Of a stretch of DNA of 64,000 nt, positions 34,778 to 62,374 are shown piece by piece (positions within the stretch are counted from its first letter, which is position 1; every line of letters begins with the position of its first letter). A program made the position numbers and the translations under genes. Source of the stretch: Rhodoferax saidenbachensis (GTDB taxonomy: Bacteria; Pseudomonadota; Gammaproteobacteria; Burkholderiales; Burkholderiaceae_C); assembly GCF_001955715.1 (NCBI RefSeq), contig NZ_CP019239.1, positions 1,116,001 to 1,180,000 on the forward strand, given 5' to 3'. The notes under the pieces were generated by a model. It saw only the letters and a list, made by a program, of their open reading frames with translations. It was not told where the DNA came from and searched no databases.

Positions 34778-36082
34778 ATGATCCGTTTCCTGTACGCCTG
34801 CGCGCTCACGCTGATGCAGCCGCTGGTGCGGCGCAAGCTGGCCCGGCGTGCCCTTGACGAGCCGGTGTATGGCGAGGCCGTGGAAGAACGTTTTGGCCAC
34901 TACACCGCGCCTGCAGAAACCACGTCCAATCTGATCTGGGTGCATGCCGTGTCGCTCGGTGAAACCCGGGCCGCTGCCGTGCTGGTGGCGCAATTGCGTG
35001 CGCAACTGCCGGGCATGCGCCTGCTGCTGACCCACGGCACCGCCACGGGGCGTGTGCAGGGCCGCAGTCTGCTGCGGGACGGTGACCTGCAGGTCTGGCA
35101 GCCGTGGGACACATCGGCAGCGGTGGCGCGTTTTCTGGCCCACTTCCGCCCGCGCATAGGTCTGTTGATGGAAACCGAGGTCTGGCCGAATCTGGTGGCC
35201 GGGTGTGCCACAGCCGGGGTACCGCTGTGTCTGGTCAATGCGCGCCTGAGTGACAAATCGCTGCGCCAGGCCGAGCAACTGGGCTGGCTGTCACGCCCTG
35301 CCTACCGCGGCCTGCGCGCCGTGTGGGCCCAGTCCGAAGCGGACGCGCAACGCCTGCGCAGCCTGGGCGCACCCGTCATGGGCGTCATGGGTAATTTCAA
35401 ATTCGACGCCACGCCCGATGCCACCCAACTCGCGCAGGGCAAAGCCATGCGCCTGCAAAGTGCCAAACCGGTGCTGGTGTTCGCCAGTTCGCGCGAGGGC
35501 GAAGAGGCCATGTTGCTGGAGAAATTCAAGCAAAAAGTGCCTCTAGCCACCGTGGATATTGCGCAAGCAGCTCCTGAAACCATAGCAAATACGGTGCATT
35601 GGTTGATCGTGCCACGCCATCCACAGCGTTTTGCCGAGGTGGCCAAGCTGTTCGAAGACGCGGGCCTGCGTGTATCGCGGCGCAGCAACTGGGTGGATGG
35701 TGTACCTGCAGAAGCGGATATCTGGCTGGGTGACACCCTGGGTGAAATGGCGCTGTACTTTGGCCTGGCCGATGCCGCCCTGCTGGGCGGCAGCTTTGCG
35801 CCATTGGGTGGGCAGAACCTGATTGAAGCGGCAGCCTGCGGTTGCCCCGTGGTCATGGGGCCGCATACCTTCAACTTTGCCGAGGCAGCACAGTTGGCGC
35901 AGGCCGCTGGGGCCGCATTCGTGGCCACCGACTTGGCGCAAGCCGTAGACCAGGCCATCGCACTGGTGCAGTCACCCCAAGCGCTGCAGCAGGCCGAGGA
36001 CGCCGCCCTGGCTTTGGGCTTGGCGCATCGGGGTGCTGCGCAACGCACCGCCGAAGCGGTGATTGCCTTGTTACTTGGCTAG
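34778..36082 (+). CDS. waaA: 3-deoxy-D-manno-octulosonic acid (Kdo) transferase
   Basis: 434 residues. An N-terminal membrane anchor (MIRFLYACALTLMQPLV), then the WaaA signatures GEAVEERFGHY, WVHAVSLGETRAA, METEVWPNLVAGC and, in the donor domain, LLGGSFAPLGGQNLIEAAA. It transfers Kdo from CMP-Kdo to lipid A precursors. Residues about 252-270 (KVPLATVDIAQAAPETIA) are encoded by a dispersed repeat, in the variable linker between the two lobes. Confidence 0.92.
   Translation: MIRFLYACALTLMQPLVRRKLARRALDEPVYGEAVEERFGHYTAPAETTSNLIWVHAVSLGETRAAAVLVAQLRAQLPGMRLLLTHGTATGRVQGRSLLRDGDLQVWQPWDTSAAVARFLAHFRPRIGLLMETEVWPNLVAGCATAGVPLCLVNARLSDKSLRQAEQLGWLSRPAYRGLRAVWAQSEADAQRLRSLGAPVMGVMGNFKFDATPDATQLAQGKAMRLQSAKPVLVFASSREGEEAMLLEKFKQKVPLATVDIAQAAPETIANTVHWLIVPRHPQRFAEVAKLFEDAGLRVSRRSNWVDGVPAEADIWLGDTLGEMALYFGLADAALLGGSFAPLGGQNLIEAAACGCPVVMGPHTFNFAEAAQLAQAAGAAFVATDLAQAVDQAIALVQSPQALQQAEDAALALGLAHRGAAQRTAEAVIALLLG
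35531..35587 (+). repeat. Dispersed ~57-bp repeat, copy B (inside waaA)
   Basis: Core TGCGCAAGCAGCT at 35560-35572, preceded by AAAAAGTGCCTCTAGCCACC and followed by CCTGAAACCATAGCA. It lies in frame within waaA. Confidence 0.75.
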
Positions 36083-37429
36083 CTGCTCGTTGATGGGCTG
36101 CAGGTCGCTGGCGCTCAGGGTGCCTGCGGCTTGGCGCAGCTTGAGGCCGCCCACCAGCACGTCGTAACGCGCCTTGGCCAGTTTGGCCTTGGTGTCGAAC
36201 AACTGGCTTTGTGCGTTGAGCACGTCGATGTTGATGCGCACGCCGACCTGGTAGCCCAGCTTGTTGGCATCCAGTGCGCTTTGAGTGGAGGCTTCGGCTG
36301 CTTCATAGGCCTTGACCTGGGCCTGACCGGTTTGCAGGCCAAAGAAAGCGGTGCGGGTGCCCAGCGCCACATTGCGGCGTGTGGCTTCCAGGTCGGTGCG
36401 GGCCTTGTCTTCCAGCGACAGGGTTTCGCGGATGCGGTTCTGCGCCGAGAAGCCAGCAAACAGTGGCAGGTTGAAGCTCAGGCCCACGGCCGCCACATTG
36501 GCGCGTGTGTCGTAGGTGGTCGGGCCGGTGGAGGAGCCGTTGCTGTTGGACGCGGTGTAGCTGCCGGTCAGGTCCAGCGTGGGTTTGTGGCCGGCTTCGG
36601 CCTTTTTGGTTTCCAGCTTGGCCACGTCCAGCGCGACTTCAAGTTGTTTGATGCCAGGGTTGTTGACATCGGACTGGCTGACCCATTGCTCCACATCGGC
36701 GGGTTCTACGGGGGCCAGCACCACAGGAGCTGCCAGTGGCTTGGGTGCTGCGTTTTGCAGGCCCACGGTCTGGTTGAGGGCAATGGATTTGACGCGCAGG
36801 TCGTTCTCGGCGGCCAGCTCCTGGGCGACCACCAAGTCGTAGCGGGCCTGGGCTTCGCGCGAGTCGGTGATGGTGGAGGTGCCCACTTCGAAATTGCGCT
36901 TGGCAGATGCCAGCTGTTCGGCCACAGCCGCTTTTTGGGCTTTGACGAAGGTCAGGCTGTCGGCGGACGCCAGCACATCAAAGTAAGCCTGGCTCACACG
37001 CACGATGAGGTCCTGCTCGGCGGCCGACAACTGGGCCTGGGCCAGAGCTGCCTGCTTCTTGCCCTGCTCGTACGTGGCAAGGTTGGCCGGGCGGTACAGG
37101 GGCTGGGATAGCCCCAACGTGGCCGATTGGCTGTTGTAGCTGAAATTGCTGCCACTGGGCAGTCCGGGGCGGGGCAGGACTTCCTGGTTGTTCTGGCTGG
37201 CGCTGGCGGACAGGCCTACGGTGGGCAGCAGCAGCGCCTGGGCCTGGTCGGCCTTGTACAGGGTGGCATCGTACTGCGACTTGGCCGACTGGAAGCTCGC
37301 GTCGTAGCTGCGGGCTGCGTTGTACAGGTCGGTCAGGCTTTGTGCCTGTGCGGTGGCCGCAAACCCACTACCCAGCGCGAGCAGCAAGGGAATCAGGCGG
37401 TAAGACGTGGGCAATTGGGGGCGGGACAT
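36071..37429 (-). CDS. tolC: TolC-family outer-membrane efflux channel
   Basis: 452 residues with a signal peptide ending near AQA|QSLTDLY. The duplicated OEP layout is clear: SLTDLYNAARSYDASFQSAK at the start, RVSQAYFDVLASADSL in the first repeat and NLPLFAGFSAQNRIRET in the second. It forms the outer-membrane exit duct for the RND pump encoded upstream on the same strand. Its 3' end overlaps the convergent waaA gene by 12 bases. Confidence 0.92.
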   Translation of the reverse strand: MSRPQLPTSYRLIPLLLALGSGFAATAQAQSLTDLYNAARSYDASFQSAKSQYDATLYKADQAQALLLPTVGLSASASQNNQEVLPRPGLPSGSNFSYNSQSATLGLSQPLYRPANLATYEQGKKQAALAQAQLSAAEQDLIVRVSQAYFDVLASADSLTFVKAQKAAVAEQLASAKRNFEVGTSTITDSREAQARYDLVVAQELAAENDLRVKSIALNQTVGLQNAAPKPLAAPVVLAPVEPADVEQWVSQSDVNNPGIKQLEVALDVAKLETKKAEAGHKPTLDLTGSYTASNSNGSSTGPTTYDTRANVAAVGLSFNLPLFAGFSAQNRIRETLSLEDKARTDLEATRRNVALGTRTAFFGLQTGQAQVKAYEAAEASTQSALDANKLGYQVGVRINIDVLNAQSQLFDTKAKLAKARYDVLVGGLKLRQAAGTLSASDLQPINEQLAK

Positions 37430-37480
37430 GGGGTTCTTTCGTGGAGCTAATCGGGAGTGCGCAAATCAGGTGCGGGCAAA

Positions 37481-37822
37481 TCAGTAGCGGGGTATCGAGG
37501 GGTCAACCTCTGCAGACCAGGCATGGATGCCGCCGGCGATATTGGCGACATGGGCAAAGCCGTGGCTCTGCAGGAAATGGGCCACCTGCATGCTGCGTCC
37601 GCCGTGGTGGCACAGGCAGGCGATGGGTTGCTCCGGGTCCAGTTCCGCCAGGCGCGGGGGAATGGTGCCCATGGGAATGGTGAGCAGCGTAAAGCCATCG
37701 GCCTGCACGCTGGCGATTTGCAGTTCATGCGGTTCACGCACATCCAGCACCACCGGCTCTCCGTGCGCACGCACAGACGCCAGCCAGTGGGACAGTTCTG
37801 CAGGGCGGACTTGGGCAATCAT
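37481..37822 (-). CDS. Single-domain rhodanese-like sulfurtransferase
   Basis: 113 residues from the first ATG (MIAQVRPAELSHWL); a TTG six bases upstream is an alternative. The rhodanese fold is complete: VVLDVREPHEL and the active-site loop CHHGGRS with its Cys, then VANIAGGIHAWS. It is cytoplasmic, since no signal peptide is present. It sits between pcm and tolC in the efflux cluster, an arrangement common in Burkholderiales. Confidence 0.88.
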   Translation of the reverse strand: MIAQVRPAELSHWLASVRAHGEPVVLDVREPHELQIASVQADGFTLLTIPMGTIPPRLAELDPEQPIACLCHHGGRSMQVAHFLQSHGFAHVANIAGGIHAWSAEVDPSIPRY

Positions 37823-37844
37823 GGGCAATGTGTATCCAGAAAGA

Positions 37845-38498
37845 TCAGAACGTGAAGCGCGAAGGCTCTGCGAAGTCGTGCAGGCGCGGCGCTACCGTGT
37901 CCCAGGGGTGGGTGGTGCGGTAGTCGTTGGCGCCGGTGCGGGTCACAAAGGTGGCGCGCATCATCGGCTCGTCACCCACGATGGCGCCCAGACGGCCGCC
38001 CACCTTGAGTTGGGCCAGCAGGGCCGGTGGCACTTCGGCCACCGAGCCGCTCAGCAAAATCACATCAAATGGGCCTTCAGCGGCCAGTCCCTGCGAACCA
38101 TCGCCCTGGCGCACTTCCACGTTGGCAATACCTGCTTTTTGCAGGTTGGCGCGCGCCATCTGCACCAGTTCGGGCAGCAGTTCCAGAGACACCACACGCT
38201 GCGCGCGGTGCGCCAGCAGCGCGGCCATGTAACCCGAGCCGGTACCGACTTCGAGCACGGTCTCATGGATCTGCACATTCAGGTCCTGCAGCAGGCGCGC
38301 TTCCACGCGGGGCGCCAGCATGCATTCGCCACCGGGCAGGGGGATTTCCAGATCGGCAAACGCCAGGCCCTTGTGCGCCAGCGGCACGAAGTCTTCGCGC
38401 TTGACTACGGACAACAGTTGCAGAACGTCAGCATCCAGCACATCCCAGGGGCGGATTTGCTGTTCGATCATGTTGAAGCGGGCTAGTTCGGTGTTCAT
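37845..38498 (-). CDS. pcm: Protein-L-isoaspartate O-methyltransferase family protein
   Basis: 217 residues from MNTELARFNMIEQQIRPWDV; the 11 extra residues upstream are unlikely. The SAM-binding motif VLEVGTGSGYMAALLA, the substrate segment GGECMLAPRVEAR and the later RLGAIVGDEP are PCMT-like. It probably repairs isoaspartyl residues, although this shorter subfamily next to tolC has not been shown by me to be a true PCMT. Confidence 0.85.
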   Translation of the reverse strand: MNTELARFNMIEQQIRPWDVLDADVLQLLSVVKREDFVPLAHKGLAFADLEIPLPGGECMLAPRVEARLLQDLNVQIHETVLEVGTGSGYMAALLAHRAQRVVSLELLPELVQMARANLQKAGIANVEVRQGDGSQGLAAEGPFDVILLSGSVAEVPPALLAQLKVGGRLGAIVGDEPMMRATFVTRTGANDYRTTHPWDTVAPRLHDFAEPSRFTF

Positions 38499-38527
38499 TT
38501 CAATACTCCAGGCTGAGGGCGAGACAT

Positions 38528-41500
38528 TCAATCAATTTTAGCGGGCAGGGTCTTGGGCTTGCCGCTGAACAGGCTCTTGGCCCAATGGGCCAAATCATCC
38601 ATGTAGCAATACACCACGGGCACGACGACCAAAGTCAGCAGCGAGGAGGTGATCACCCCGCCAATCACGGCCTGGCCCATGGGTGCGCGCATCTCGGACC
38701 CTTCGGTCAGTGCAAAGGCCAGTGGCACCATGCCGAAGATCATGGCCAGCGTGGTCATCAGGATGGGGCGCAGGCGCACCTTGGCGGCCAGCAGCAGGGC
38801 TTCGGAGCGCTCCATCCCGTCTTCACGGGCACGGATCGCAAAGTCCACCAGCAAAATGGCGTTTTTGGTCACCAGGCCCATGAGCATCACCACGCCGATG
38901 ATGGAGAACATCGAGAGCGTGGATTTGAACATCATGAGCGCCAACACCACACCAATCAGTGTGAGCGGCAGCGCTGTCATCAGTGCCAGCGGCTGCAGAA
39001 AACTCTTGAACTGGCTGGCCAGGATCATGTAGATGAACACAATCGCCAGTACCAGGGCCGAGATGGCATACCCAAAGGCCTCTGCCATGTCCTTGGTGGA
39101 GCCGCTGAACTTGTAGCTGTAGCCGGGCGGCATGGCAATGTTGTCCATGGCGGTCTTGATGTCGGCCGACACTTCGCCCGCCGAGCGGCCCGAGACGTTG
39201 GCGGTGATGGACACCTCGCGTGTCAGGTCACGCCGGTTGATCTGGTTGGCGCCGGTGGATTCCACCACCTCGGCCACCTGGTTCAGGCGCACGATGCGTG
39301 GGCTGCCATCGGCATTGCTGCCCACGGTGAATGGCAACTGGCTCATGTCGCTGGTGCTGTTGCGCGCGCTGGGGGCCAGGCGCACGTTCACGTCATAGGT
39401 CTGGTCGTCGGGTGCGCGCCAGTTGCCCACCGTCTGGCCGGCCACCAGGGTGCGCAGGGCGGTACCAATCTGCGTCACCGACAGGCCCAGGTCTGAGGCC
39501 ACGTCGCGTTTCACCTGCACGTCCAGCGTGGGTTTGTTGGGTTTGGCGCTGGAGTCCAGGTCCACCAGGCCGGGGATGTCGCGGATTTTTTCCAGCGCCA
39601 GCGTGGTCAGGCGTTCCAGCTCGCCGGTGTCCGCACCCTGGATGGAGAACAGGATTTGCTTTTGCCCGCCCACCGAATCCATCAGGCCCGCGTGCGTAAC
39701 CGTGATGCCAGGCACCTGGCGCAGGCGTTCACGCAGCTTGACCGACATGTCCTCCACACCGAGTTTGCGGTCTTTGCGGTCCACCAGGCGGATGTAGATG
39801 CTCGCGTAGATCTTGCCCTGGGCATTGCCCGTGTTGATGGTGGACAGCGTGTAACGCACCTCGGGGAATTCGCGCACGATGGCTTCGACCTGTTTGGCCT
39901 TGGCTTCGGTCACTTCGAGCGAGGAGCCCACGGGGGTGTTGAAGTTCAGCGTGGTTTCCGAGAAGTCGGACTTGGGCACGAACTCGGTGCCCAACAGCGG
40001 CACCATGAAAATGCTGCCCACAAAAATGCCCAGTGCCAGGCCCACCGTGGCCAGCTTGTGGTGCAGCGACCAGCGCAGGATGCCCTGGTAAGCATCGGCC
40101 AGGCTTTCGGTGGCATCGTCAAACCAGCGCGTCACGCGGCCAATGGTCTTGTCGTACGGCGTGACAGGCGGGCCGCGTTTGCCATGGTTGTCAATACTCG
40201 GGTCGTGCCAGATGCTGGAGAGCATGGGGTCCAGCGTAAAACTGACAAACATCGAGATCAGCACCGCGGCCACGATGGTGATGCCAAATTCGTGAAAGAA
40301 CTTGCCAATGATGCCGCCCATGAACCCAATGGGCAGGAACACTGCCACGATGGACAGCGTGGTGGCCAGTACGGCCAGACCAATTTCCTGTGTGCCGTCC
40401 AGCGAGGCCTGGTAGGGACTTTTGCCCATTTGCACATGGCGCACGATGTTCTCGCGCACCACGATGGCATCGTCAATCAGCAGGCCCACGCACAGGGACA
40501 AGGCCATCAGCGTGATCATGTTGATGGTGAAACCAAACAGGTTCATGAACAGGAAAGTGCCGATCAGCGCGATGGGCAGGGTGAGCCCGGTGATGACGGT
40601 GGAGCGCCACGAGTTCAGGAACAGGAACACGATCAGCACCGTGAGCACCGCGCCCTCAATCAGCGTGCGCCGCACGTTGTCCACCGAAACACGGATCTGG
40701 CGCGAGCCATCGGCAATGGGTTCGAGCCGCACACCCGGGGGCAGCTGCTTCTGCATCTCGCCCAGGGTCTTGATCAGGCCGTCGACTACGGCAATGGTGT
40801 TTTCATCCTGTGACTTTTGCACGGTGAGCATGAGCGTGCGCTGGCCGTTGTAGAGCGCCAGGCTTTCCACTTCCTGTGCACCATCGGTCACGCGCGCCAC
40901 CTGGTCTACACGCACTGGCGCGCCGTTCTTGCGCGCCACAATGATCTTGCCAAAGTCCTCAGGGCGTTGCATGCGCGCCTCGATCTGGATCACCCGCTCC
41001 TGTTCGGCGGAGCGGATGGCGCCTACCGGGAGGTCCTGGTTTTCGCTGCGCACGGCGTTCACCACCTGGTCGGGCGTGATGCCAAAAGCCTCCAGTGCCT
41101 GCGGGTTCAGGTAGACATTGATTTCGCGCTTGGTACCGCCCACTACTGTGACCGAGCCCACGCCGCGCACGTTCTCCAACCGTTTCTTGAACGTCTGCTC
41201 GGCCCAATTGGTGAGTTCCACTGCAGACGGGGCCTTGGTTCCATCTTTGCTGTCGGGCAGCACGGCCACCGACCAGACGGCGCGTGCGGCCGGGTCAAAG
41301 CGCAACACGCGGGGTTCTTTCACCTCGGTACGCAACAGCGGTTTGATGGAGGCCACCTTCTCGCGCACGTCTTCGGCGGCTTTGCGGCCGTCTACATGCA
41401 GGCCAAACTCGATCACCACCACGCTCTGGCCTTCGTAGCTGCGCGAGGTCAGGGCATTGATACCGGCAATGGAGTTGACGCCTTCTTCAATTTTTTTGGA

Positions 41501-41689
41501 AACTTCTGTTTCCACAATCTCGGGCGAGGCGCCGGGGTAGTCGGCAATCACCACCACCACGGGGAAGTCGATGTTGGGGAACTGGTCGACCTGCAGGCGC
41601 TGCAGGGAGAACAGGCCCAGCACCACCAGGGCCAGCATGACCATGGTGGCAAACACCGGATTCTTGAGACTGACTTGGGTGAACCACAT
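38528..41689 (-). CDS. RND multidrug efflux pump inner-membrane subunit
   Basis: 1053 residues, the standard HAE-1/AcrB-type length. Twelve membrane helices with two large periplasmic loops. Start [21 protein letters not shown]-terminal [20 protein letters not shown], the proton-relay helix region [20 protein letters not shown] and the second half [20 protein letters not shown] are all intact. It exports drugs or other small molecules by proton antiport, working with the adaptor gene four bases upstream and the TolC channel downstream. Confidence 0.95.
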
Positions 41690-41692
41690 GGC

Positions 41693-42826: not shown

Positions 42827-42841
42827 GTCTACCTTGTTGTT

Positions 42842-43525: not shown

Positions 43526-43708
43526 GAATAATTAATGACTGATTGGTTATTAGTGTAGCTTTGCCTACCAGGAGTGTCAATCGAAGCGCCGCAAGCGTGG
43601 CTCGGTCTTCGGTAAATTTAAGCAAAGCCCATGTACTTTATAGAGCCATGGCGCGCCGCGTAAGATTCGCATGCCCCGCACGTCTTGCGGACCCTACTGG
43701 AGAAGCCC
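43526..43708. promoter_or_regulatory. Promoter region with a TetR-operator-like inverted repeat
   Basis: Just upstream of tetR, TTAATGACTGATTGGTTATTAG (43531 onward, given here in parts TTAATGAC / TGATTG / GTTATTAG) is an imperfect inverted repeat of the type bound by TetR/AcrR proteins. The rest of the gap carries the promoter of msrA on the plus strand. Confidence 0.5.
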
Positions 43709-44251: not shown

Positions 44252-44318
44252 TGCCCTGCCTTGTGAGTTGGTCAGGATCGGGCAAGCCAGGCGTCATTGT
44301 TCGAAGGTAGACTGAGGC

Positions 44319-49042: not shown

Positions 49043-49573
49043 ATGGCTTCTGCAACCCCCCCGGCCCCACCCGTGCTCAAGGGCGACGACCCGATTGACG
49101 CGCTGCTGTCTGCCCACGGCCTGCGCCGCACAGCGGCTGCGCGGCGTGTGTTGGGCTGGCTGTTGGCGCACCCCGACACCAGCTACACCCATGCGCAGTT
49201 GCAGGAGTCTTTGGCGGGTGACCATGCCGAGCCGCTGGACCGCGTCACCCTGTACCGCCTGATTGACCGCCTGACGCAAGTGGGTCTGCTGTTATGCCGG
49301 GTAGACAGCCAGCGCGTGCGCCGCTACCAGGCCATGCCGGCCAGCGTGCACGCCACGCCGCACTTTGAGTGTCAGACCTGCCACCGCGACAGCCCGCTGG
49401 CCGGTGCCCTGCATGCGGTGGACCTGGAAAAGGCCGCGCAAACCGCCATCGAGTCCCTGCGCGCTTTGGGCTACACCGACATGCACCTCGACTTTGCAGT
49501 GCGCGGCGTGTGTGTGGACTGCGCCACCAGCGGTGCCAGCAGCAGCCCAGCCGCTGCCGGGTCGGCCGCATGA
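49043..49573 (+). CDS. zur: Fur-family regulator, Zur-type
   Basis: 176 residues from the ATG at 49043 with an AAGGATG ribosome site. The start at 49010 is rejected because it lies within an operator. DNA-binding part: LSAHGLRRTAAARRVLGWLL and DRVTLYRLIDRLTQVGLL; C-terminal part with metal-site Cys pairs (FECQTCHRD and GVCVDCAT). Zinc-loaded Zur represses zinc uptake genes. It is the first gene of a plus-strand operon and probably represses both directions from the three boxes. Confidence 0.9.
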   Translation: MASATPPAPPVLKGDDPIDALLSAHGLRRTAAARRVLGWLLAHPDTSYTHAQLQESLAGDHAEPLDRVTLYRLIDRLTQVGLLLCRVDSQRVRRYQAMPASVHATPHFECQTCHRDSPLAGALHAVDLEKAAQTAIESLRALGYTDMHLDFAVRGVCVDCATSGASSSPAAAGSAA

Positions 49574-50292
49574 TCCGCACCCACGGTTTGGCCTACCGCT
49601 ATCCCGCAGGGGAAGCGCTGCAGTTTCCCGATGTGGACGTGGCGCAGGGCGCGGTGCTCTTGCTCAGCGGCCCCTCGGGCTGCGGCAAGTCGACCTGGCT
49701 GGCGCTGGTAGCCGGGCTGGTAGCGCCGACTGCCGGCACCATCGAAGTGGCCGGGCAAGCACTGAATGCTCTCAAATCCGTAGCGGCCGACGCATGGCGG
49801 GCGAGGGTTATTGGCTTCTTGCCGCAAAAATTACATCTGAGCGCAGCGCTCACCGTGCAGCAAAACCTGGCCATGGCGCAATGGGCGGCGGGTCAGCCCG
49901 AAGACACGGCCGCCATCCACACCGCGCTGCAGGCCTTGGGCGTGGCCGAGCTGGCGCAGCGCAAGCCCGCGCAGCTCTCGGGGGGGCAGGCGCAGCGCGT
50001 GGCGCTGGCGCGTGCCGTGCTGCTGCAGCCGCGTGTGCTGCTGGCCGATGAGCCCACCGCCAGCCTGGACGACGAAGCCGCGGCCGACGCTGTGGCGCTG
50101 CTGCTGGCCACGGCCCGCACCCACAGCGCCACGCTGGTGATTGCCACGCACGACGCACGTGTGGCGGCACTCATCCCCCCTGAGATTAATGGCCAAATTG
50201 GCAAAACCCCAAGTCCAGGCTTCCAGCCCTTGCGGTTATTGCGCAACCAGCTATCAAAAGAAGAGCAAAAAGAGGCGAGGGTGGCCGCATGA
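49570..50292 (+). CDS. ABC transporter ATPase (MacB/LolD-like), zur operon
   Basis: 240 residues from the ATG overlapping the zur stop (ATGA). Walker A GPSGCGKSTWLAL, signature LSGGQAQRVALARAVL and Walker B VLLADEPTASLDD. It pairs with the FtsX-like permease that follows (four-base overlap). The last about 22 residues (PGFQPLRLLRNQLSKEEQ) lie outside the normal ATPase fold and are encoded by a dispersed repeat. The operon resembles the zinc-responsive PA4064-PA4066 genes of Pseudomonas aeruginosa (from memory). Confidence 0.88.
   Translation: MIRTHGLAYRYPAGEALQFPDVDVAQGAVLLLSGPSGCGKSTWLALVAGLVAPTAGTIEVAGQALNALKSVAADAWRARVIGFLPQKLHLSAALTVQQNLAMAQWAAGQPEDTAAIHTALQALGVAELAQRKPAQLSGGQAQRVALARAVLLQPRVLLADEPTASLDDEAAADAVALLLATARTHSATLVIATHDARVAALIPPEINGQIGKTPSPGFQPLRLLRNQLSKEEQKEARVAA
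50205..50262 (+). repeat. Dispersed ~57-bp repeat, copy C (3' end of the ABC ATPase gene)
   Basis: Core TGCGCAACCAGCT at 50240-50252 with upstream CTTCCAGCCCTTGCGGTTAT and downstream ATCAAAAGAAGAGC. It encodes the C-terminal tail of the ABC ATPase. Confidence 0.65.
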
Positions 50293-51506: not shown

Positions 51507-51529
51507 TCTGGCCCCCACGCTCCGCCGAC

Positions 51530-51600: not shown

Positions 51601-51702
51601 GGTCGCTGCCCCCCAAAGGGGGCGCGTTTTGGCTGCGCCGCACACGGTGACCCCTTGGGGCGGCCCGGCGGAAAAACATTCTTTCTCAACCCTAGGAAAT
51701 TT

Positions 51703-51945
51703 ATGAAAAAATCGCTTCTAGCCCTCGTCCTTCTTGCGCAAGCAGCTACGTTTTCCATAGCAAAAGAAAGCGCTGAAGACACCAAACAGGACGTGGCCAA
51801 ACACCGCGCCATCGCTGCCGCGCACCTGGCAGCCGCCACCTGCCGCGAGTCTGGCAAAGACGAAGACGTTTGCAACAAGGAACTGCAAGCCGCCTGCAAA
51901 GGCCTGGCAATTGGCAAGTTCTGCGGCATGAAACACGAACACTGA
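51703..51945 (+). CDS. Small secreted Cys-containing protein in the zinc locus
   Basis: 80 residues. A clear signal peptide (MKKSLLALVLLAQAATFSIA) is followed by a mature part of about 60 residues with four Cys (TCRESGKDEDVCNKELQAAC, then FCGMKHEH). The C-terminal HEH and the Cys spacing could bind metal or form two disulphides. Almost the whole signal peptide is encoded by a copy of the dispersed repeat. The family is not recognised. It lies where related zinc operons would carry a periplasmic component. Confidence 0.75.
   Translation: MKKSLLALVLLAQAATFSIAKESAEDTKQDVAKHRAIAAAHLAAATCRESGKDEDVCNKELQAACKGLAIGKFCGMKHEH
51706..51763 (+). repeat. Dispersed ~57-bp repeat, copy D (encodes a signal peptide)
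   Basis: Core TGCGCAAGCAGCTA at 51735-51748, preceded by ATCGCTTCTAGCCCTCGTCC and followed by CGTTTTCCATAGCA. It covers codons 2-20 of the 80-residue secreted protein. Confidence 0.75.
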
Positions 51946-52006
51946 TGCATTGCAGCGGGCGCACACGCTGCTCCCGCTTTAAGATAGACCGTCTGGAGCC
52001 CCCGCC

Positions 52007-52516: not shown

Positions 52517-52532
52517 TTTTCCGATTGTGTTG

Positions 52533-54230: not shown

Positions 54231-56501
54231 TTACGCCAACTTGAACGGCAAACTCCGCTGCGTCTTCCCCGTAATCTTGGCAATCGCATTGGCAAACGCC
54301 GGCGCCAACGGCGGCAGCCCAGGCTCACCCATGCCCGTCGGTGCATCCGCACTGGGCACCAGGTACACCGCGATTTTCGGCATGTCAGTCAGACGCGCCA
54401 CGGTGTAATCGTGGAAGTTGCTTTGCTCCACGCGCCCGTCCTTGAAAGTGATGGCCGAGCCGGGCAGGCAGGTACCCAGGCCCATCAGCGCGGCGCCCTG
54501 CACCTGGGCTTCGATGGACCGCGGGTTGACCGCCAGGTTGCAGTGCACCGCAGCCGTGACCGCGTGCAACTTGGGTACGCCTTTGGTTACAGACGCCTCG
54601 GCCACATAGGCGACCACGGTGTCAAACGATTCGTGTACCGCCACGCCCCAGGCCTGGCCCTTGGGCAGTTTGCGTTTGCCGTAGCCGGACTGCTCCACGG
54701 CCAGCATCAGCGCGGCGGTGTGGCGCGGGTGTTTGTCACCCATCAGGGCCAGCCGGTAGGCCACCGGGTCCTGTTTGGTGGCACGGGCAATTTCGTCGAC
54801 CAGCGTTTCCATGACGTAGGCCGTGTGGGTCGAGCCCACGCTGCGCCACCACAACACCGGCACATTCACCTGGGGGTGGTGCACCGACAGGCGCATGGGC
54901 ACGTCGTAGGGTTCGCGCATGCCTTCGACCATGGTGCCGTCGATACCGTTCTTGACCATGCCCTGGAACGGTGTGCCACCCAGAATGGACTGGCCCACGA
55001 TCACATGGTCCCAGGCCAGCACGTTGCCCTTAGCGTCAAAGCCGATGTCGGCGCGGTGCACATGCATGGGCCGGTAGTAGCCGCCCTTGATGTCATCTTC
55101 GCGGCTCCACACCACACGCACGGGTGCGTCCAGCCCGGCTGCGCGCGACAGCTTGGCCACGGTGCAGGCTTCCACCACGTAGTCGGCCGTGGGCACGGCA
55201 CGCCGGCCAAAGCCGCCACCGGCCATTTGCACGTTGATCTTCGTGTTGCCAGGTGCCACGCCAAGCACCTTGCTGGCCGCTATTGCGTCCAGCCCAGGCA
55301 TCTGTGTGCCTAACCACAGCTCGGCTTTGGCGTCTGCGCCGCTGCCGGTGAGGGCGATGGTGCAGTTCAGCGGTTCCATGGGCGCATGGGCCAGGTAGGG
55401 GAAGACAAACTCGGCGCTGATCTTCTTAGGGGCCTTTGCCAGGGGCGTCATGTCGCCCGTAATGTGCACGGCGCCGGTTTTTTTGGACAGGGCGCGGTAG
55501 CTGGCTAACTGCGCCTTGCTGTCGACGGCTTCCACGCCACTGGTGTCCCATTCCAGCACCAGCGCGTCACGCGCCTGCTTGGCCGACCAGTAGCCGTTGG
55601 CCACCACGGCGACCCCTTCGCCACCGCGGTCCACGGGCATGCGCAGCACCGCTTTCACGCCGGGGATGGCCTTGGCCGCTGCGTCGTTGACGGATTTGAG
55701 CTTGGCGCCAAACACCGGCGGGTGCGCCACCACGGCGGTCAACATGCCGGGCAGGCGCATGTCGATGCCGTAGGACTGGTTGCCAGTGGATTTGGCCTGC
55801 GCATCCAGGCGGCCCGTGGCCTTGCCGATGATGCGGAAATCCTTGGGGTCTTTGAGCGTGACTTTCTCGGGCACAGGCAGGGCCATGGCGGCCTGCGCCA
55901 ACGCACCGTAGCCGAGTGACTGGCCGTTCGGCCCCAGCACTTGGCCCGCGCTGGTGCGCAGGCTGCCGGCGTCCACACCCCACTGCGCAGCGGCGGCCGA
56001 CACCAGCATGGCGCGCGCCCGCGCACCGAGTTCGCGGTACTGCAGATAGGAGCGTTTGATGGAGCCCGATCCGCCGGTGATGTGCATGCCAAATGCCGGG
56101 TCCACGTAGGCCGGGTCGGCGTCGCCGTGGCGGCTGCGCACCAGGCGCCAGTCGGCGTCCAGTTCTTCGGCCAGCACCATGGGCAGCGCGGTGGCGATGC
56201 CCTGGCCGAACTCCAGCCGGTTGACGGCCACGGTGACCACGCCATCGGGCGCGATGTGGACGAAGGCGCCGGGCTGCTGGAACGGCTTAAGGCCCGTGCT
56301 GGCCGGGGCGCCGCCTTGCGCCATGCCCACCAGCGGGTAGGCGCCCAGCGCCAGCCCGGAGGCCACGCTGACCTTGAGGAAGCTGCGGCGTGGCATGCCA
56401 CTATTTGCTACGGTTTCAGGAGCGCCTTGCGCACGCCGCATAAGGGCTGCAATGCCTTTTGGCAGTTGGTCCAGGGAGTCTGTGAGGGTTTCGAAGTGCA
56501 T
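54231..56501 (-). CDS. Molybdenum hydroxylase large subunit (xanthine dehydrogenase/IorB-like), copy 1
   Basis: 756 residues. A Tat signal is centred on RRSFLKVSVASGLALG near residue 38, so the enzyme is exported folded. Molybdopterin-binding blocks include VNRLEFGQGIATALPMVLAE, MAGGGFGRRAVPTADYVVEA and the active-site Glu region MGEPGLPPLAPAFANAIAK. It resembles isoquinoline 1-oxidoreductase or aldehyde-dehydrogenase beta subunits with a single large chain. The partner 2Fe-2S subunit lies 17 bases upstream. The substrate is unknown. Confidence 0.9.
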   Translation of the reverse strand: MHFETLTDSLDQLPKGIAALMRRAQGAPETVANSGMPRRSFLKVSVASGLALGAYPLVGMAQGGAPASTGLKPFQQPGAFVHIAPDGVVTVAVNRLEFGQGIATALPMVLAEELDADWRLVRSRHGDADPAYVDPAFGMHITGGSGSIKRSYLQYRELGARARAMLVSAAAAQWGVDAGSLRTSAGQVLGPNGQSLGYGALAQAAMALPVPEKVTLKDPKDFRIIGKATGRLDAQAKSTGNQSYGIDMRLPGMLTAVVAHPPVFGAKLKSVNDAAAKAIPGVKAVLRMPVDRGGEGVAVVANGYWSAKQARDALVLEWDTSGVEAVDSKAQLASYRALSKKTGAVHITGDMTPLAKAPKKISAEFVFPYLAHAPMEPLNCTIALTGSGADAKAELWLGTQMPGLDAIAASKVLGVAPGNTKINVQMAGGGFGRRAVPTADYVVEACTVAKLSRAAGLDAPVRVVWSREDDIKGGYYRPMHVHRADIGFDAKGNVLAWDHVIVGQSILGGTPFQGMVKNGIDGTMVEGMREPYDVPMRLSVHHPQVNVPVLWWRSVGSTHTAYVMETLVDEIARATKQDPVAYRLALMGDKHPRHTAALMLAVEQSGYGKRKLPKGQAWGVAVHESFDTVVAYVAEASVTKGVPKLHAVTAAVHCNLAVNPRSIEAQVQGAALMGLGTCLPGSAITFKDGRVEQSNFHDYTVARLTDMPKIAVYLVPSADAPTGMGEPGLPPLAPAFANAIAKITGKTQRSLPFKLA

Positions 56502-56518
56502 GGTGTTTCTCCCGGGGC

Positions 56519-56977
56519 TCAGGCCAGTTGTTTGGCAGCAGCGTGGATGGCACCACGGATGCGGGCATAGGTTCCACAGCGACAGATGTTGCCGGCCATG
56601 GCCGCGTCAATGTCGGCGTCGCTGGGTTTGCGGTTGCTTTGCAGCAGCGCGGTGGCACTCATGATCTGACCGCTTTGGCAGTAGCCGCATTGCGCCACGT
56701 CCAGGGCCACCCAGGCTTGCTGCACAGCTTTGCCCACCGGGTCTGCGCCCACGGCTTCAATGGTGGTGATCTTTTGCCCCGCGGCGCTGGAGGCGGGGGT
56801 GATGCACGAGCGGATCGCCGTGCCGTTGAGGTGCACTGTGCAGGCACCACACTGGGCCATGCCGCAACCAAATTTGGTGCCGGTCATGCCCAGCGTGTCC
56901 CGCAGGGCCCACAGGATGGGGGTGGAGGGATCGGCGTCTACCGCCGTGTCTTTGCCATTGATATTGAGCGTGAGCAT
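56519..56977 (-). CDS. 2Fe-2S subunit of molybdenum hydroxylase, copy 1
   Basis: 152 residues. The plant-type 2Fe-2S loop [18 protein letters not shown] and the second cluster pair [16 protein letters not shown] with [15 protein letters not shown] are intact. It passes electrons from the molybdenum centre to an acceptor, often cytochrome c in this group. First gene of a two-gene operon. Confidence 0.93.
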
Positions 56978-57034
56978 GGGGCGCGTCCTTGTTGTGCAAG
57001 GGCGCAGACTACCTGAAATCGGAAATTTCTGCCG

Positions 57035-57302
57035 GGAGCCTGTTTACGGTCTGTACGGGGCCACGCAAGTGCCTTTTCGGGATGGGCTGCTAGGCGCAAA
57101 ACGCAACCGGGCTGGTGCCCGGTAAGGCTTTGCAACGCCGCAGATCGCCCGAAAAGGCACTTGCCCTTCGGGTTGGGACGAAATCGGGCGACTTGCCCGC
57201 CAAATTCCTTGTGTGGGCATGAGCCCACACGGCGAAATGTTGGCAGACAACTCATCCCGATTGCGTCCCAACGTGACCCCGTACAGACCGTAAACAGGCT
57301 CC
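57035..57302. mobile_element. Second MITE-like element with 31-bp terminal inverted repeats
   Basis: 57035-57065 (GGAGCCTGTTTACGGTCTG at its outer end) and 57272-57302 are inverse complements at 30 of 31 positions. Inside, GCAAGTGCCTTTTCGGG (from 57065) pairs with a perfect copy at 57148-57164, and a smaller hairpin GTGTGGGC/GCCCACAC lies near 57211. The right end reaches the last base of the pdxH stop codon. No transposase, and no target duplication is seen. Confidence 0.75.
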
Positions 57303-57940
57303 TAGGGCGCCAGACGTTCCCGCAGCCAGTTCTGATCGGGCTGGATGCGGTACTGCAGCCGGTCATGCAGGCGGCTCTTGCGGCCTTGCCAGAACTGCCA
57401 GTTGTCGGGCTTGAGCCGGTAGCCGCCCCAGTGCGGCGGGCGTGGCGGTTGCAGCAAAAACTGGGCGGCGTATTTGGCAGCGTTGGCTACCAGCACACCG
57501 CGCCCCGAAATCACCTGGCTTTGTGGCGAGGCCCACGCACCGATGCGCGAATCCAGTGGGCGGCTCTTGAAATAGGCGTCGCTTTCTGCATCGCTTACTT
57601 TCTCCACCACACCTTCAATACGCACCACGCGCTCCAGTTCCACCCAATGGAACTGCAGCGCGGCATACGGGTTGCCGGCCAGTTCCTGGCCCTTGCGGCT
57701 GTCGTAATTGGTAAACCAAGTGATGCCTTGTGCGTCATACCCCTTGATCAACACGATGCGGGTGCTGGGGCGCAGGTTGCTGCCCACAGTGGCCAGCGTC
57801 ATGGCGTTGGGCTCGGGCACTTGCCCGGTGATGGCTTCATTCAGCCATTGGTCAAACTGTTGGAGCGGGTCGGCGTGCGAGGCGCTTTCGTCCAGTTCGG
57901 CGCGTTCGTAGCTTTTGCGGAGGTCGGCAATGGAAGTCAT
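57302..57940 (-). CDS. pdxH: Pyridoxamine 5'-phosphate oxidase
   Basis: 212 residues. The PdxH blocks are intact: [60 protein letters not shown] and the C-terminal [16 protein letters not shown]-dependent oxidation of pyridoxamine or pyridoxine 5'-phosphate to pyridoxal 5'-phosphate. It stands alone between the two molybdenum hydroxylase modules; a repeat element abuts its stop. Confidence 0.93.
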
Positions 57941-58107
57941 GGCACCAGTATAGGAGTCTGCCTTGAGCCGTGGTGTGCGGGCGCAACCGACGAAAACTAT
58001 CCGACGTATTAGGGCTTACCCGCACACTCCCCGGACGCCACAGGACTAAATTGTGGTGTGCACGACAACCAGAGGCCGCAAGCCCCATCTACCGAGGAGA
58101 GACTCCC

Positions 58108-58572
58108 ATGAGCGTCAAATTCCAAGTCAATGGCAAGGCGGTGACCGCCCAGGCCGAACCCGACACCCCGCTCTTGTGGGTGATCCGCGATGAGCTGGGC
58201 ATGACCGGCACCAAGTTTGGCTGCGGTGCGGCTTTGTGCGGTGCGTGTACGGTGCACCTGAACGGCACGCCGGTGCGTTCCTGCCAGACGCCACTGTCCA
58301 CGGTGGCCGGCAAGAAGGTGGCCACGGTCGAAGGGCTGTCCCGCAACAACACCCACCCGCTGCAGGTCGCGTGGATCAAGCACGACGTGCCCCAGTGCGG
58401 TTACTGCCAGTCGGGCCAGTTGATGAGCGCTGCGGCATTGCTCGCCGGTAACAAAAACCCGACAGACGCCGACATCGACGCCGCCATGAGTGGCAACCTT
58501 TGCCGCTGCGGCACCTATCCCCGTATCAAGGCCGCCATCAAGGATGCGGCCTCCACGATGCGCAAAGCCTGA
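58108..58572 (+). CDS. 2Fe-2S subunit of molybdenum hydroxylase, copy 2
   Basis: 154 residues from ATG 58108 after a GAGGAGAG ribosome site. Cluster motifs [18 protein letters not shown] and [16 protein letters not shown] with [15 protein letters not shown]. Close paralogue of the 56519-56977 gene. First gene of a plus-strand operon running to the MobA-like gene. Confidence 0.93.
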
Positions 58573-58583
58573 GGAGCAGCACC

Positions 58584-60722
58584 ATGACCACCATCCAAAA
58601 CGCTTCGCGCCGCGACTTCCTCAAGACCTCTACCGCTCTGGCGGGCGGCGGCCTGCTTATGGGCATTGCAGTGCCCGGTGCACTGCAGGCCGCTGGCACC
58701 GTGCACACGCCCAATGCCTGGGTGCACATTGCCGACGACAACACCATCACGCTGATCTCGGCGCGCTCCGAGATGGGGCAGGGCGTCTACACCTCCATGC
58801 CCATGTTGATTGCCGAAGAGCTCAACGTGGACCTGCGCAAGGTCAAGGTGCGCATAGCCCCGCCCAACGCCAAGCTCTATGGCAATCCGCTCTTGGGCGG
58901 CCCGCAGCTCACCGGCGGCTCGACCTCGGTACGCGATGGCTGGGAAAAGCTACGCATCGGCGGGGCCCAGGTGCGCGAAATGCTGATCAGCGCCGCCGCG
59001 AATAAATGGAATGTGGACCGCTCCACGCTCAAAGCCGCCGACGGCATGGTGATCGGCCCGAAAGGTAAAAAGGCCAGCTATGGATCACTGGCGGCCGATG
59101 CTTCCAAGCTGCCGGTGCCTGAGAAGGTGAGCATCAAGGACCCCAAGGACTTCACCATCGTGGGCAAGCGCACCAAGCGTCTGGACACCCCCATGAAGGT
59201 CAACGGCACGGCCGAGTTTGGCATCGACGTGAAGCTGCCCGGCATGGTCTACGCGGCGCTGGAGCAGTGCCCGGTGATCGGCGGCAAGGTCAAGTCGTTT
59301 GACGCGGCCAAGGCCAAGTCCATGCCCGGCGTGATTGCTGTGGTGGAGATTCCCGATGGCGTGGCCGTGGTGGCCAACAGCTGGTGGCGCGCCAACATGG
59401 CGCGCAAGACCGTCAACATCACCTGGGACGAAGGTGCGGGTGCGAGCCTGAATGAAAAATCCATGCTCGACAGCCTGCGCGGTGCGTCCAAAACCGGCAC
59501 ACCGATTCCGCTCAAGGCGGTGGGCGATCCCGAGGCCGTGATTGCTGCGTCCAGCAAAGTGGTGCGCGCCGAGTACGCCAGCCAGTTGCTCTCGCACTCG
59601 CCGCTGGAGCCGATGAACTTCACCGCCGACTACAACAACGGCAAGGTGCGCCTGATTGGCCCCACCCAGTGGCAGGACGCCGCGCAAAGCGCGATTGCCG
59701 CCGCCGTGGGCGTCAAGCCCGAAGACGTGAGCGTGGAAACCACCTTCCTGGGTGGCGGTTTTGGCCGACGCATTGACATCGACTTCATCATCCAGGCCGC
59801 GCAAATCTCCAAGGCGGTGGGCAAGCCGGTCAAGCTGGTGTGGTCGCGTGAAGACGACATGACACACGACTTCTACCGCCCGCAGGCCATCCACACCATG
59901 GCCGCGGCGCTGGGCGCCGATGGCAAGCCCACGGCCATGACCTTCCGGCTGACCTCGCAGTCGGTCACCGGACGCATCTTTGGCCTGCCCGCGCCAGTGC
60001 AGGACCCGCTAATGACCGAGGCCGCCGTGGCGGGCTACGAGATTCCGGCCTCGCGGCACGACGTGGTCAAGCACGACGCAGGCTTGCGCGTGGGCTACTG
60101 GCGCTCGGTCAGCCACGCGCTCAACGCCTTTGCCAACGAGAGCTTTATTGACGAACTGGCCATTGCTGCGGGCAAAGACCCCTACGCCTACCGCATGGCG
60201 CTGCTGGAGAAGCAGCCGCGCTTTGCCAATGTGCTCAAGCTCGCGGCGGACAAGGCCGGCTGGGGCACACCACTGCCCGCGGGCCGCTCGCGCGGCATTG
60301 CGCTCATGGAGGGCTACGACACCTACATGGCCCAGGTGGCCGAGATCAGCATGGAAGGTGGCGCGGTCAAAGTGCACAAGATGACCGTGGCCGCCGACCT
60401 GGGCCGCATGGTCAACCCCGACACGGTGGAGGCGCAGATCCAGTCCAGCATCGTGTTTGGCCTGGGGGCTGCCACCATGCAGGAGATCACGCTGGTCAAT
60501 GGCCGCGTGCAGCAGACCAACTTCCACCAGTTCCCGCTGGTGCGCATGTACGAGACCCCGGTGATCGACATCACACTGGTCAATAGCACCGAGAAGCCCG
60601 GTGGCATTGGCGAGCCCGCCACGGCGCTGGTAGCACCCGCCATTGCCAACGCGGTGGCGGCCCTCACCGGCAAGCGCGTGCGCAAGCTGCCCATCACCGA
60701 AGCGGCGATTCGCGCGGCCTGA
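58584..60722 (+). CDS. Molybdenum hydroxylase large subunit, copy 2
   Basis: 712 residues from ATG 58584 (MTTIQNASRRDFLKTSTALA), with a Tat motif SRRDFLK. It has SARSEMGQGVYTSMPMLIAE, GGGFGRRIDIDFIIQAAQIS and the active-site region GGIGEPATALVAPAIANAV. It is paralogous to the 54231-56501 gene but diverged. Eleven bases separate it from the small-subunit gene. An exported enzyme oxidising an aldehyde or N-heterocycle is likely. Confidence 0.9.
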   Translation: MTTIQNASRRDFLKTSTALAGGGLLMGIAVPGALQAAGTVHTPNAWVHIADDNTITLISARSEMGQGVYTSMPMLIAEELNVDLRKVKVRIAPPNAKLYGNPLLGGPQLTGGSTSVRDGWEKLRIGGAQVREMLISAAANKWNVDRSTLKAADGMVIGPKGKKASYGSLAADASKLPVPEKVSIKDPKDFTIVGKRTKRLDTPMKVNGTAEFGIDVKLPGMVYAALEQCPVIGGKVKSFDAAKAKSMPGVIAVVEIPDGVAVVANSWWRANMARKTVNITWDEGAGASLNEKSMLDSLRGASKTGTPIPLKAVGDPEAVIAASSKVVRAEYASQLLSHSPLEPMNFTADYNNGKVRLIGPTQWQDAAQSAIAAAVGVKPEDVSVETTFLGGGFGRRIDIDFIIQAAQISKAVGKPVKLVWSREDDMTHDFYRPQAIHTMAAALGADGKPTAMTFRLTSQSVTGRIFGLPAPVQDPLMTEAAVAGYEIPASRHDVVKHDAGLRVGYWRSVSHALNAFANESFIDELAIAAGKDPYAYRMALLEKQPRFANVLKLAADKAGWGTPLPAGRSRGIALMEGYDTYMAQVAEISMEGGAVKVHKMTVAADLGRMVNPDTVEAQIQSSIVFGLGAATMQEITLVNGRVQQTNFHQFPLVRMYETPVIDITLVNSTEKPGGIGEPATALVAPAIANAVAALTGKRVRKLPITEAAIRAA

Positions 60723-60747
60723 GCGGCAAAGCCGCTACAGTGCGCCT

Positions 60748-61752
60748 ATGGAAAGTCTGGACCTTCGGGTATTAGGGGATGCGCTGGCCTGGAAACAGGC
60801 CGGCCACGCCGTCACGCTGGTGACGGTGGTGGAGACCTGGGGCAGTGCGCCGCGCCCGCCCGGTGCGCTTTTGGCTGTGCGCGACGACGGTATGGTCAGC
60901 GGCTCGGTTTCGGGTGGTTGTGTGGAGGACGATTTGATCGCTCGCACCAAGGCCGCGCTGAACCAGCCGTCGGAGGCCTCGCCCACCCAACCGTTCATGA
61001 TGGCTTACGGCGTGAGCAAGGAAGAGGCGGCACGCTTTGGCCTGCCCTGCGGCGGTACGTTGCGCCTGGTGCAAGAGCCACTGCACGACACGGCGTGGAT
61101 CAGTGAGGTGCTGCAACGCACGGCAGACCACCAACTGGTGGCACGCACCCTGACCCTGTCTACCGGTGTGGTGGCTTTGCATGACGCCGTGCGTGGCCAG
61201 GCCATGCAGTTTGACGGCACCACGCTCACCACGCTGTTCGGCCCGCGCTGGCGCCTGTTGCTGATTGGTGCTGGCCAGCTCTCGCAGGCCGTGGCCAACA
61301 TGGCCACGGCGCTGGACTTTGAGGTGCTGGTGTGTGACCCGCGTGAAGAGTACGCCAGCATGGTGGGCGGCATGCCCGGCGTGCGCCGTATGGAGGGCAT
61401 GCCCGACGACGTGGTGCGCACGCTGCAGCCAGACGCCCACACCGCCATCGTGGCCCTCACGCACGACCCCAAGCTTGACGACATGGCCCTGCTCGAAGCA
61501 CTGGGCAGCGACGCGTTCTACGTGGGCGCCCTCGGTTCGCGCCGCAACCAGGAGACGCGCAAAAAGCGCTTGGCCGAACACTTTGATGTGAACGAGGCCC
61601 AGCTGGCGCGCCTGCACGGCCCGGTCGGCTTGAAGATTGGTGCACGCACCCCGGCAGAGATTGCCGTGTCTATCTTGGCCGAAATCATCCAGGTCAAAAA
61701 CACGGTGGCCACGCCCGCCGTGGTCCACACCGCCCCCAGCTGTGCCACCTGA
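60748..61752 (+). CDS. XdhC-family maturation protein
   Basis: 334 residues from MESLDLRVLGDALAWKQAGH. The N-terminal XdhC/CoxI block (ETWGSAPRPPGALLAV, SGSVSGGCVEDDLI) and a C-terminal Rossmann domain (LLLIGAGQLSQAVANMATAL) are present. XdhC proteins bind and sulfurate the molybdenum cofactor for xanthine dehydrogenase-type enzymes. It is in the operon of hydroxylase copy 2 and overlaps the next gene. Confidence 0.9.
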   Translation: MESLDLRVLGDALAWKQAGHAVTLVTVVETWGSAPRPPGALLAVRDDGMVSGSVSGGCVEDDLIARTKAALNQPSEASPTQPFMMAYGVSKEEAARFGLPCGGTLRLVQEPLHDTAWISEVLQRTADHQLVARTLTLSTGVVALHDAVRGQAMQFDGTTLTTLFGPRWRLLLIGAGQLSQAVANMATALDFEVLVCDPREEYASMVGGMPGVRRMEGMPDDVVRTLQPDAHTAIVALTHDPKLDDMALLEALGSDAFYVGALGSRRNQETRKKRLAEHFDVNEAQLARLHGPVGLKIGARTPAEIAVSILAEIIQVKNTVATPAVVHTAPSCAT

Positions 61753-62374
61753 ATCGGTGGCTACGTTGGTAACTGCAGACGAAGCACAGCACCTGCCCGT
61801 GTTGCTGGTGCTGGCCTCGGGCCGCGGCGAACGCTTCACCGCATCGGGCGGCACCACCCACAAATTACAAGCGGACTTGTGTGGCAAACCCGTGCTGCAA
61901 CACACGCTGGACACCGTGCGCGCCAGCGGCCTGCGCTGGCACCTGGAAGACGCGGGCCACCCCGGCATGGGCGACAGCATCGCCGCCGCCGTGCGCGCTA
62001 CGCGCGATGCTCCGGGCTGGATGGTGCTGCCTGCTGATCTGCCCTTGATACGACCGCAAACCCTGGTCGAGATTGCACGCGCGCCCATGGCCGTAAATGT
62101 GCTGGTACCCAGCTTCGAAGGCCAGCGCGGCCACCCGGTGCGCTTTGCGGCTGCGTGTGGCGACGCACTCGCCAGTTTGCAAGGAAATCAGGGTGCAGCC
62201 CCCGTGGTAGCTGCGCAAGCAGCTATGAAATTCATAGTGAGTGACGCGGGCTGTGTGGTGGATATTGATACGGTGGAGGACTTGCGCAGGGCGGCTGGGT
62301 TGTTGGCTGAGCGGGCGGAAGTTGGTGGTTCAGAGATCGCACCGCAGGCAACATACGGATTCAAAATCAAGTGA
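61742..62374 (+). CDS. MobA-like molybdenum cofactor nucleotidyltransferase
   Basis: 210 residues from GTG 61742, overlapping XdhC by 11 bases; GTG 61757 is an alternative. NTP-transferase fold: LLVLASGRGERFTASGGTTH as the nucleotide loop, DSIAAAVRA, and WMVLPADLPLIRPQTL. Likely converts Mo-cofactor to its cytosine dinucleotide form for the neighbouring hydroxylases (MocA role, inferred from context). The nucleotide loop has LASGRGERF instead of the usual LAAGxGxRMG. Residues about 147-166 come from a dispersed repeat. Confidence 0.82.
   Translation: MPPESVATLVTADEAQHLPVLLVLASGRGERFTASGGTTHKLQADLCGKPVLQHTLDTVRASGLRWHLEDAGHPGMGDSIAAAVRATRDAPGWMVLPADLPLIRPQTLVEIARAPMAVNVLVPSFEGQRGHPVRFAAACGDALASLQGNQGAAPVVAAQAAMKFIVSDAGCVVDIDTVEDLRRAAGLLAERAEVGGSEIAPQATYGFKIK
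62181..62238 (+). repeat. Dispersed ~57-bp repeat, copy E (inside the MobA-like gene)
   Basis: Core TGCGCAAGCAGCTA at 62212-62225, preceded by GGTGCAGCCCCCGTGGTAGC and followed by TGAAATTCATAGTG, whose CTATGAAATTCATAG is a near-palindrome. Confidence 0.7.

Follow-up and report, generated by a model that had tools for sequence, protein, structure and literature searches.

A stretch of 64,000 nucleotides from Rhodoferax saidenbachensis (positions 1,116,001-1,180,000 of the single 4.26-Mb contig NZ_CP019239.1; hereafter the window) contains five copies of a short dispersed repeat, each overlapping a predicted gene of a different kind, which raises the question of what sort of element could come to form part of several distinct proteins. 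A sequence-only reading of the window had described a ~57-bp repeat with a 13-base core common to all five copies, and had seen in it a short mobile repeat that is tolerated or used as protein-coding material. All five copies are indeed present at the positions given by that reading and the repeat is real. However, the conserved stretch is longer, reaching from about position -38 to about +30 relative to the core, and the core itself is exact in four of the copies while that of the copy at 50240 has one mismatch. The comparative evidence assembled here suggests that the motif is probably one form of a ~67-bp DNA uptake signal, which has been written in place at several hundred sites.

The motif is abundant in the source genome, with the 14-mer TGCGCAAGCAGCTA occurring in 189 exact copies (107 on the plus and 82 on the minus strand), as against none of the reversed 14-mer that served as a control. 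The sequence-only reading had proposed a genome-wide profile search in which copies in coding and non-coding DNA are counted. When carried out on 464 kb of the 4.26 Mb (the window and 20 stretches that each cover 20 kb), this search recovered 81 copies, which extrapolates to ~745 per genome. The profile represents the source-genome dialect, having been trained on 74 sites picked by a core with at most one mismatch, and its cut-off of -2.8 was set at the fourth-highest score from about 1.85 million random-sequence positions (best random score 2.5); about two false matches are therefore expected in the 464-kb sample, in which the real copies score 3 to 93. An unrestrained iterative version of the profile ended up on the palindromic 3' half of the motif and was dropped. 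When only the 13-base core is considered, the same 464 kb hold 28, 24, 42 and 235 cores with zero, one, two and three mismatches, respectively, against 0, 0.3, 22 and 221 expected, and the window holds 14 cores with up to two mismatches against 6.1 expected.

The conserved span of ~67 bp is organized as a series of boxes, namely a T-rich tract at -38, AAAT at -28, GGCCTCTAGCCC at -23 and the core TGCGCAAGCAGCTAT, followed on the 3' side by AAAT/ATTT-like letters and then by ATAGCA up to about +30. A short GCTAT...ATAGC palindrome is part of this arrangement. The information content, estimated from the 38 sampled copies that are not wholly within a gene, is ~67 bits, and the boxes are retained at a median copy-to-copy identity of 55% in the 81-copy sample (81% in the best pair).

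Alignments of host proteins with their homologues, which the sequence-only reading had also suggested, speak to how the motif came to be in its host genes: PurK and RlmI are ungapped, and the linkers of WaaA, a heptosyltransferase and a Sua5-like protein, taken up below, are gapped in motif-free orthologues. Across the genus, the motif region is free of gaps in all 60 PurK and RlmI sequences (30 each), these being the best 30 of 52 and of 53 matching genomes, source genome included, so that the least similar genomes are left out. Despite this gap-free region, the motif scores range from -47 to +64 and +83 in PurK and RlmI; some genomes encode nearly the same amino acids with other codons, and in RlmI the amino acids also change. 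Aligned with the two or three solved homologues displayed for each, thiolase, PurK, TrpD and Qor stay ungapped through the motif; for RlmI, one of two alignments opens a gap of 2 residues at the motif edge. All five hosts were picked for their conserved look. Scanning 1.42 Mb of loci less selectively yielded eight coding groups, seven of them testable. Here the motif-free orthologues are ungapped throughout in RlmI (14), PurK (15) and a thioredoxin-like protein (24), the last of which is named from the look of its sequence and contributes a single weak motif copy (score 34). In one mixed group 12 of the 31 motif-free orthologues are ungapped and 19 gapped, and one group has no motif-free orthologues. 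Judging from these alignments, the motif in PurK and RlmI is a substitution in place, with no insertion, and the proposal of a mobile repeat is contradicted at the loci that can be tested cleanly.

The presence of the motif is concerted across the genome. The motif score at a given locus follows the genome copy number, with Spearman coefficients of 0.84 for PurK and 0.90 for RlmI with the source genome included, 0.82 and 0.89 without it, and 0.67 and 0.85 once identity to the query is removed. The motif state of RlmI equals the genome abundance class in 30 of 30 genomes, the class cut of 8 (a sum of two word counts, to which the RlmI copy itself may add) having been set post hoc between the values 7 (G252) and 10 (G212). 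It likewise equals the motif state of PurK in 19 of 19. The absence of any disagreeing genome points to a single, genome-wide cause. On an RlmI tree built without the motif region, there are six switches of state on the best tree, at least three of which are forced by supported branches. Of competence genes, ComEC and DprA were the two searched for, and both were found in the source genome.

The motif is also differentiated into lineage dialects. The 14-mer GCGCAAGCAGCTAT occurs in 51 of 200 genomes of the family, in up to 151 copies, and in an order-wide draw of 300 genomes, nine of the 291 from outside the family have the core 14-mer, in one copy each; this search was confined to the order, and an exact 14-mer misses the other dialects and understates the genomes that carry them. 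Among the 16 genomes in which the 14-mer was counted, it reaches 68 copies in Curvibacter sp. GWA2_63_95, 46 in Diaphorobacter nitroreducens and 20 in Comamonas badia; Rhodoferax lacus has none. A differing consensus was recovered from the genomes G015, G113, G120, G206 and G247, and from G128 with 11 sites only. In G247 the left box GGCCTCTAGCCC, present 99 times, goes with a different core, the core 14-mer being found only twice; G015 and G120 share a GCGCTT...AAGCGC form, and G113 has a GCCGGC form.

One dialect connects with an earlier survey. Tong et al. (2017) described GCTTAT(N)5AAGCG in Acidovorax ebreus (114 copies) and ATAGCT(N)22CAAAAG in Polaromonas naphthalenivorans (125 copies), both mainly intergenic and, in the accessible text, with no function assigned (PMC5217627). 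The first corresponds to the central part of one dialect of our motif: in the loci examined beyond the source-genome sample it matches 25 times, and nearly all of these matches, as judged by eye, fall within motif copies. No tie to the motif emerged for the second, its one match in the loci not being recognisably in a motif copy. Rhodoferax ferrireducens T118 had the most motif pairs (140) of the 569 genomes scanned in that survey (PMC5217627). Unlike the present analysis, the portion of the paper available has no mention of the full motif, of coding copies, of evolution in place or of dialects (PMC5217627).

With genes called by a simple purpose-written caller, 24 of the 81 copies are wholly intergenic, 14 lie across a gene end and 43 are wholly genic, as against 7.6%, 9.2% and 83.2% of random 67-bp windows; the intergenic enrichment is significant (binomial p 5e-9). 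Intergenic copies also match the profile better (median score 77) than those inside genes (50). The impression that the repeat lies inside coding sequence at every copy was thus a small-sample effect. The genic hosts are varied housekeeping genes, with 26 copies on the coding strand and 17 on the opposite one. The use of the sequence as protein-coding material is nevertheless upheld, since 23 of the 26 same-strand copies share the frame GCG CAA GCA GCT and RlmI residues differ with the motif. The enrichment between genes and at gene ends, along with the short GCTAT...ATAGC palindrome, could also be taken to reflect an RNA-level element, such as a terminator or a processing or stability signal, or a transcription-factor site. 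However, this is quite improbable, as the genic copies occur on either strand, their hosts have varied housekeeping roles and the window gives no Rfam match at the gathering threshold; moreover, a role in transcription initiation has been argued against for the Acidovorax and Polaromonas motifs (PMC5217627).

Within the window, copy 1 (30540..30608, plus strand, core at 30578, profile score 64) extends across the stop codon of the gene for Ada-AlkA (30588-32144, minus strand; Pfam Ada_Zn_binding/AlkA_N), and copy 2 (35523..35591, plus strand, core at 35561, score 76) encodes the linker of WaaA (34778-36082, plus strand). Copy 3 (50203..50271, plus strand, core at 50241 with one mismatch, score 48) supplies the last codons of an ABC ATPase gene (49570-50292, plus strand; Pfam ABC_tran), and copy 5 (62175..62243, plus strand, core at 62213, score 59) lies inside the gene of a MobA-like nucleotidyltransferase (61757-62374, plus strand; Pfam NTP_transf_3). 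Copy 4 (51698..51766, plus strand, core at 51736, score 70) provides the start codon and a signal-peptide-like N-terminus of an 80-residue open reading frame (51703-51945, plus strand) in which no Pfam family was matched. Pfam agrees with the earlier naming of the Ada/AlkA, WaaA, ABC ATPase and MobA-like hosts, and is silent on this fifth one. The start codon and N-terminus of the latter consist of the motif, out of which this gene start may have arisen. The profile adds a further copy that had been missed (56402..56470, minus strand, score 47), which forms the N-terminal codons of a molybdopterin-binding protein gene (54231-56501, minus strand; Pfam MoCoBD_1/2), and a weak motif-like copy (49763..49831, minus strand, score only 24) within the ABC ATPase gene, which may be a chance or partial match. 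The five original copies are all on the plus strand, but the claim of a uniform orientation fails because two of the seven profile matches in the window, at 56432 and the weak one at 49793, sit on the minus strand. Going by position alone, a copy comparable to copy 1 lies 4.9-5.0 kb upstream of the WaaA copy in other loci as well, L051, L056, L058 and L065 among them.

The in-place origin, the on/off states, the dialects, the better matches in unconstrained sequence and the occurrence on both strands resemble published uptake sequences, and it is on this resemblance that the interpretation as an uptake signal is based. The uptake signal sequences (USS) of Pasteurellaceae evolve by point mutation, for which a drive has been proposed (PMC1939737, PMC7811141), and are biased to gene ends, with one orientation commoner in reading frames (PMC2346458). 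As far as the available text of these sources goes, they are like the motif in originating by point mutation in place, in occupying both strands, in their non-genic enrichment, in combining a short core with flanking AT tracts and in that different lineages prefer different motifs (PMC1939737, PMC2346458, PMC7811141). The DNA uptake sequences (DUS) of Neisseriaceae are similarly abundant genome-wide and have lineage dialects within one family (PMC3630211). In contrast to the motif, which is ~67 bp long and known here from sequence alone, DUS are 10-12 bp in length and are bound by the pilin ComP (PMC3630211). USS also differ, in that their sequence is unrelated to that of the motif, which is much longer and present in fewer copies.

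We infer that the recogniser would be the DNA-uptake machinery, and that a drive would arise as follows. Competent cells would preferentially bind and import DNA that matches the signal well, and the imported DNA would recombine at the homologous locus, so that better-matching alleles would enter more often. Such a drive would raise the match wherever the protein or its regulation tolerates this, leaving intergenic copies near-perfect and genic copies partial, with the latter rewriting codons and some amino acids. Were recognition to be lost or changed, all sites would decay together or drift together towards a new dialect.

Several observations weigh against an uptake signal. At ~67 bp and 67 bits, the motif far exceeds DUS (10-12 bp) or USS (9-11 bp plus AT tracts), and it does not conform to the short signal, with a core of 9-12 bp, that characterizes uptake sequences. 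Its ~745 copies are fewer than the 1,465-2,206 USS of H. influenzae (PMC7811141). Inverted close pairs, a habit of USS and DUS, were not seen in the 464-kb sample. The supported branches of the RlmI tree hold only three independent pairs, and a tree-based sign test therefore cannot reach significance. The presence of ComEC does not track the motif and was rejected as an explanation of it: ComEC is present in 55 of 61 genus genomes, many of them motif-free, and of the six without a ComEC match four carry the motif (G211, G219, G225 and G229, drafts that are 76-99% complete). Motif density drops from the origin to the terminus (rho -0.65, 21 stretches), as a chromosome-organising site would show too. 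Finally, among the seven testable coding groups, three are fully gapped in motif-free orthologues and one is gapped in 19 of 31.

The three fully gapped groups are the variable linkers of WaaA (5 motif-free orthologues), the heptosyltransferase (13) and the Sua5-like protein (20), with all 38 gapped; only 13 of the 45 motif-bearing orthologues are ungapped in these linkers. The linker lengths vary with no fixed ~23-residue difference, and four waaA orthologues (L060, L073, L093 and L129) have clearly shorter linkers. A short insertion in these linkers is conceivable. These gaps and shorter linkers, together with the dispersal of the copies over both strands and their being open in frame, are what might be expected of a mobile repeat, akin to a miniature inverted-repeat transposable element or a Rickettsia palindromic element, that was inserted long ago in many genes and has since diverged. 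The Rickettsia palindromic elements are short repeats read through inside many proteins, and they are insertions. The motif resembles them as a short repeat within proteins, but where cleanly tested it consists of substitutions in place. A mobile repeat is highly unlikely: apart from the ungapped PurK and RlmI sequences, it is contradicted at thiolase, TrpD and Qor, the 81-copy sample has no near-identical pair, neutral decay after insertion does not predict that the intergenic copies should be the most canonical, and in the gapped linkers themselves most motif-bearing orthologues are also gapped. The beta-proteobacterial repeat elements (BRE), compared here by description only, are also found in Comamonadaceae with some copies genic; they are 75-91 bp long, with a mean of 69% GC in Bordetella, are sometimes in tandem and reach at most 29 copies per genome (PMC3110155).

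At the matching place of waaA, the motif is present in records of Curvibacter, Rhodoferax, Acidovorax, Diaphorobacter, Ramlibacter, Polaromonas and Comamonas badia, and is missing or decayed in others. In the two aligned WaaA sequences of Variovorax (L089, L130) an AIRSIA peptide is kept in GC-rich codons, and carriers keep the motif codons; of four Variovorax genomes, three have one copy of the core 14-mer and one has none.

The main rival that remains is a chromosome-organising site, with sites across the chromosome bound by a nucleoid, segregation or replication protein, the individual sites being kept by selection and the whole set decaying once the protein is lost or its specificity changes. 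We regard this as possible though rather unlikely. It would account for the fall in density from origin to terminus, the concerted presence across genomes and the length of the motif, the left side of which has AT tracts ~10 bp apart (a spacing judged informally). However, it would need selection at each of hundreds of sites that rewrite the codons of conserved enzymes, copies are found both within and between genes, and no candidate protein turned up, though none was searched for. Nor is there a clear orientation relative to replication: with origin and terminus placed by GC skew, the left replichore has 27 plus and 18 minus copies and the right one 16 plus and 20 minus, without a clear polarity by inspection of the counts. 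A first impression of one-sidedness, skewed to the plus strand among the matches listed, was accordingly given up, as the sampled sequence has no such clear polarity.

Further observations concern close pairs, ComEC and foreign DNA. Across all loci, four close core pairs were found among 246 core matches, overlapping loci being counted twice. Head-to-head core pairs are seen in other genera at L131 (228-292), L132 (217-282), L214 (13696-13760) and L225 (14859-14883), the first two of these loci having been chosen because their pairs showed beforehand; they resemble the paired uptake sequences of Haemophilus that form terminators. The 99% complete G225, which has no ComEC match, holds nine core copies, and its RlmI-tree neighbours G249 and G243 hold 143 and 45; competence may have been lost in G225, with the signal now decaying, or the draft may have a gap. 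A 73-nt motif copy gave one weak partial match among the phages searched and matched five of the plasmid records searched, four of these from Comamonadaceae. The linear 32-kb record NZ_CP019241.1 of Rhodoferax antarcticus, listed as a plasmid, has four motif matches and carries pabB, and may be an unplaced piece of chromosome. In 31,000 of the 31,194 bp of a Verminephrobacter eiseniae plasmid there is no core copy with up to two mismatches. The profile finds no motif copy in the first 30.5 kb of the window, which is one region only; positions 990-18132 there form a low-GC island encoding an HsdM-type DNA methylase, an AlbA/NB-ARC protein, an IrrE-like peptidase, ankyrin repeats and a phage-type integrase.

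To our knowledge, an uptake signal of ~67 bp would be the longest known. Acidovorax temperans, discussed below, is a member of the Comamonadaceae. We found no publication naming the motif as an uptake signal, in searches that in their broader form covered titles and the starts of abstracts, with most subscription journals outside the coverage. A 2020 paper, in the text available, names only Pasteurellaceae and Neisseriaceae as having strong preferences for uptake motifs (PMC7811141). In Comamonadaceae itself, V. eiseniae binds DNA selectively, resisting competition from unrelated DNA, and A. temperans is transformed only by DNA of its own species (data not shown there); in neither case does the accessible part of the 2014 report name a sequence (PMC4212676). 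For the selective transformation of both, the present motif is a concrete candidate sequence (PMC4212676).

We see it as an evenly balanced possibility that the Comamonadaceae possess a third, independently evolved system of self-DNA recognition, with a ~67-bp signal, lineage dialects and a drive by which hundreds of loci, some residues of conserved enzymes among them, are rewritten in place. Why uptake signals exist is debated, and if this proposal is true, a third group with a longer signal, dialects and on/off states within one genus would offer an independent replicate for testing molecular drive. Dialect switching would then set genetic isolation between lineages. In many of the proteins of this group, some parts may owe their form to a DNA signal and not to protein function.

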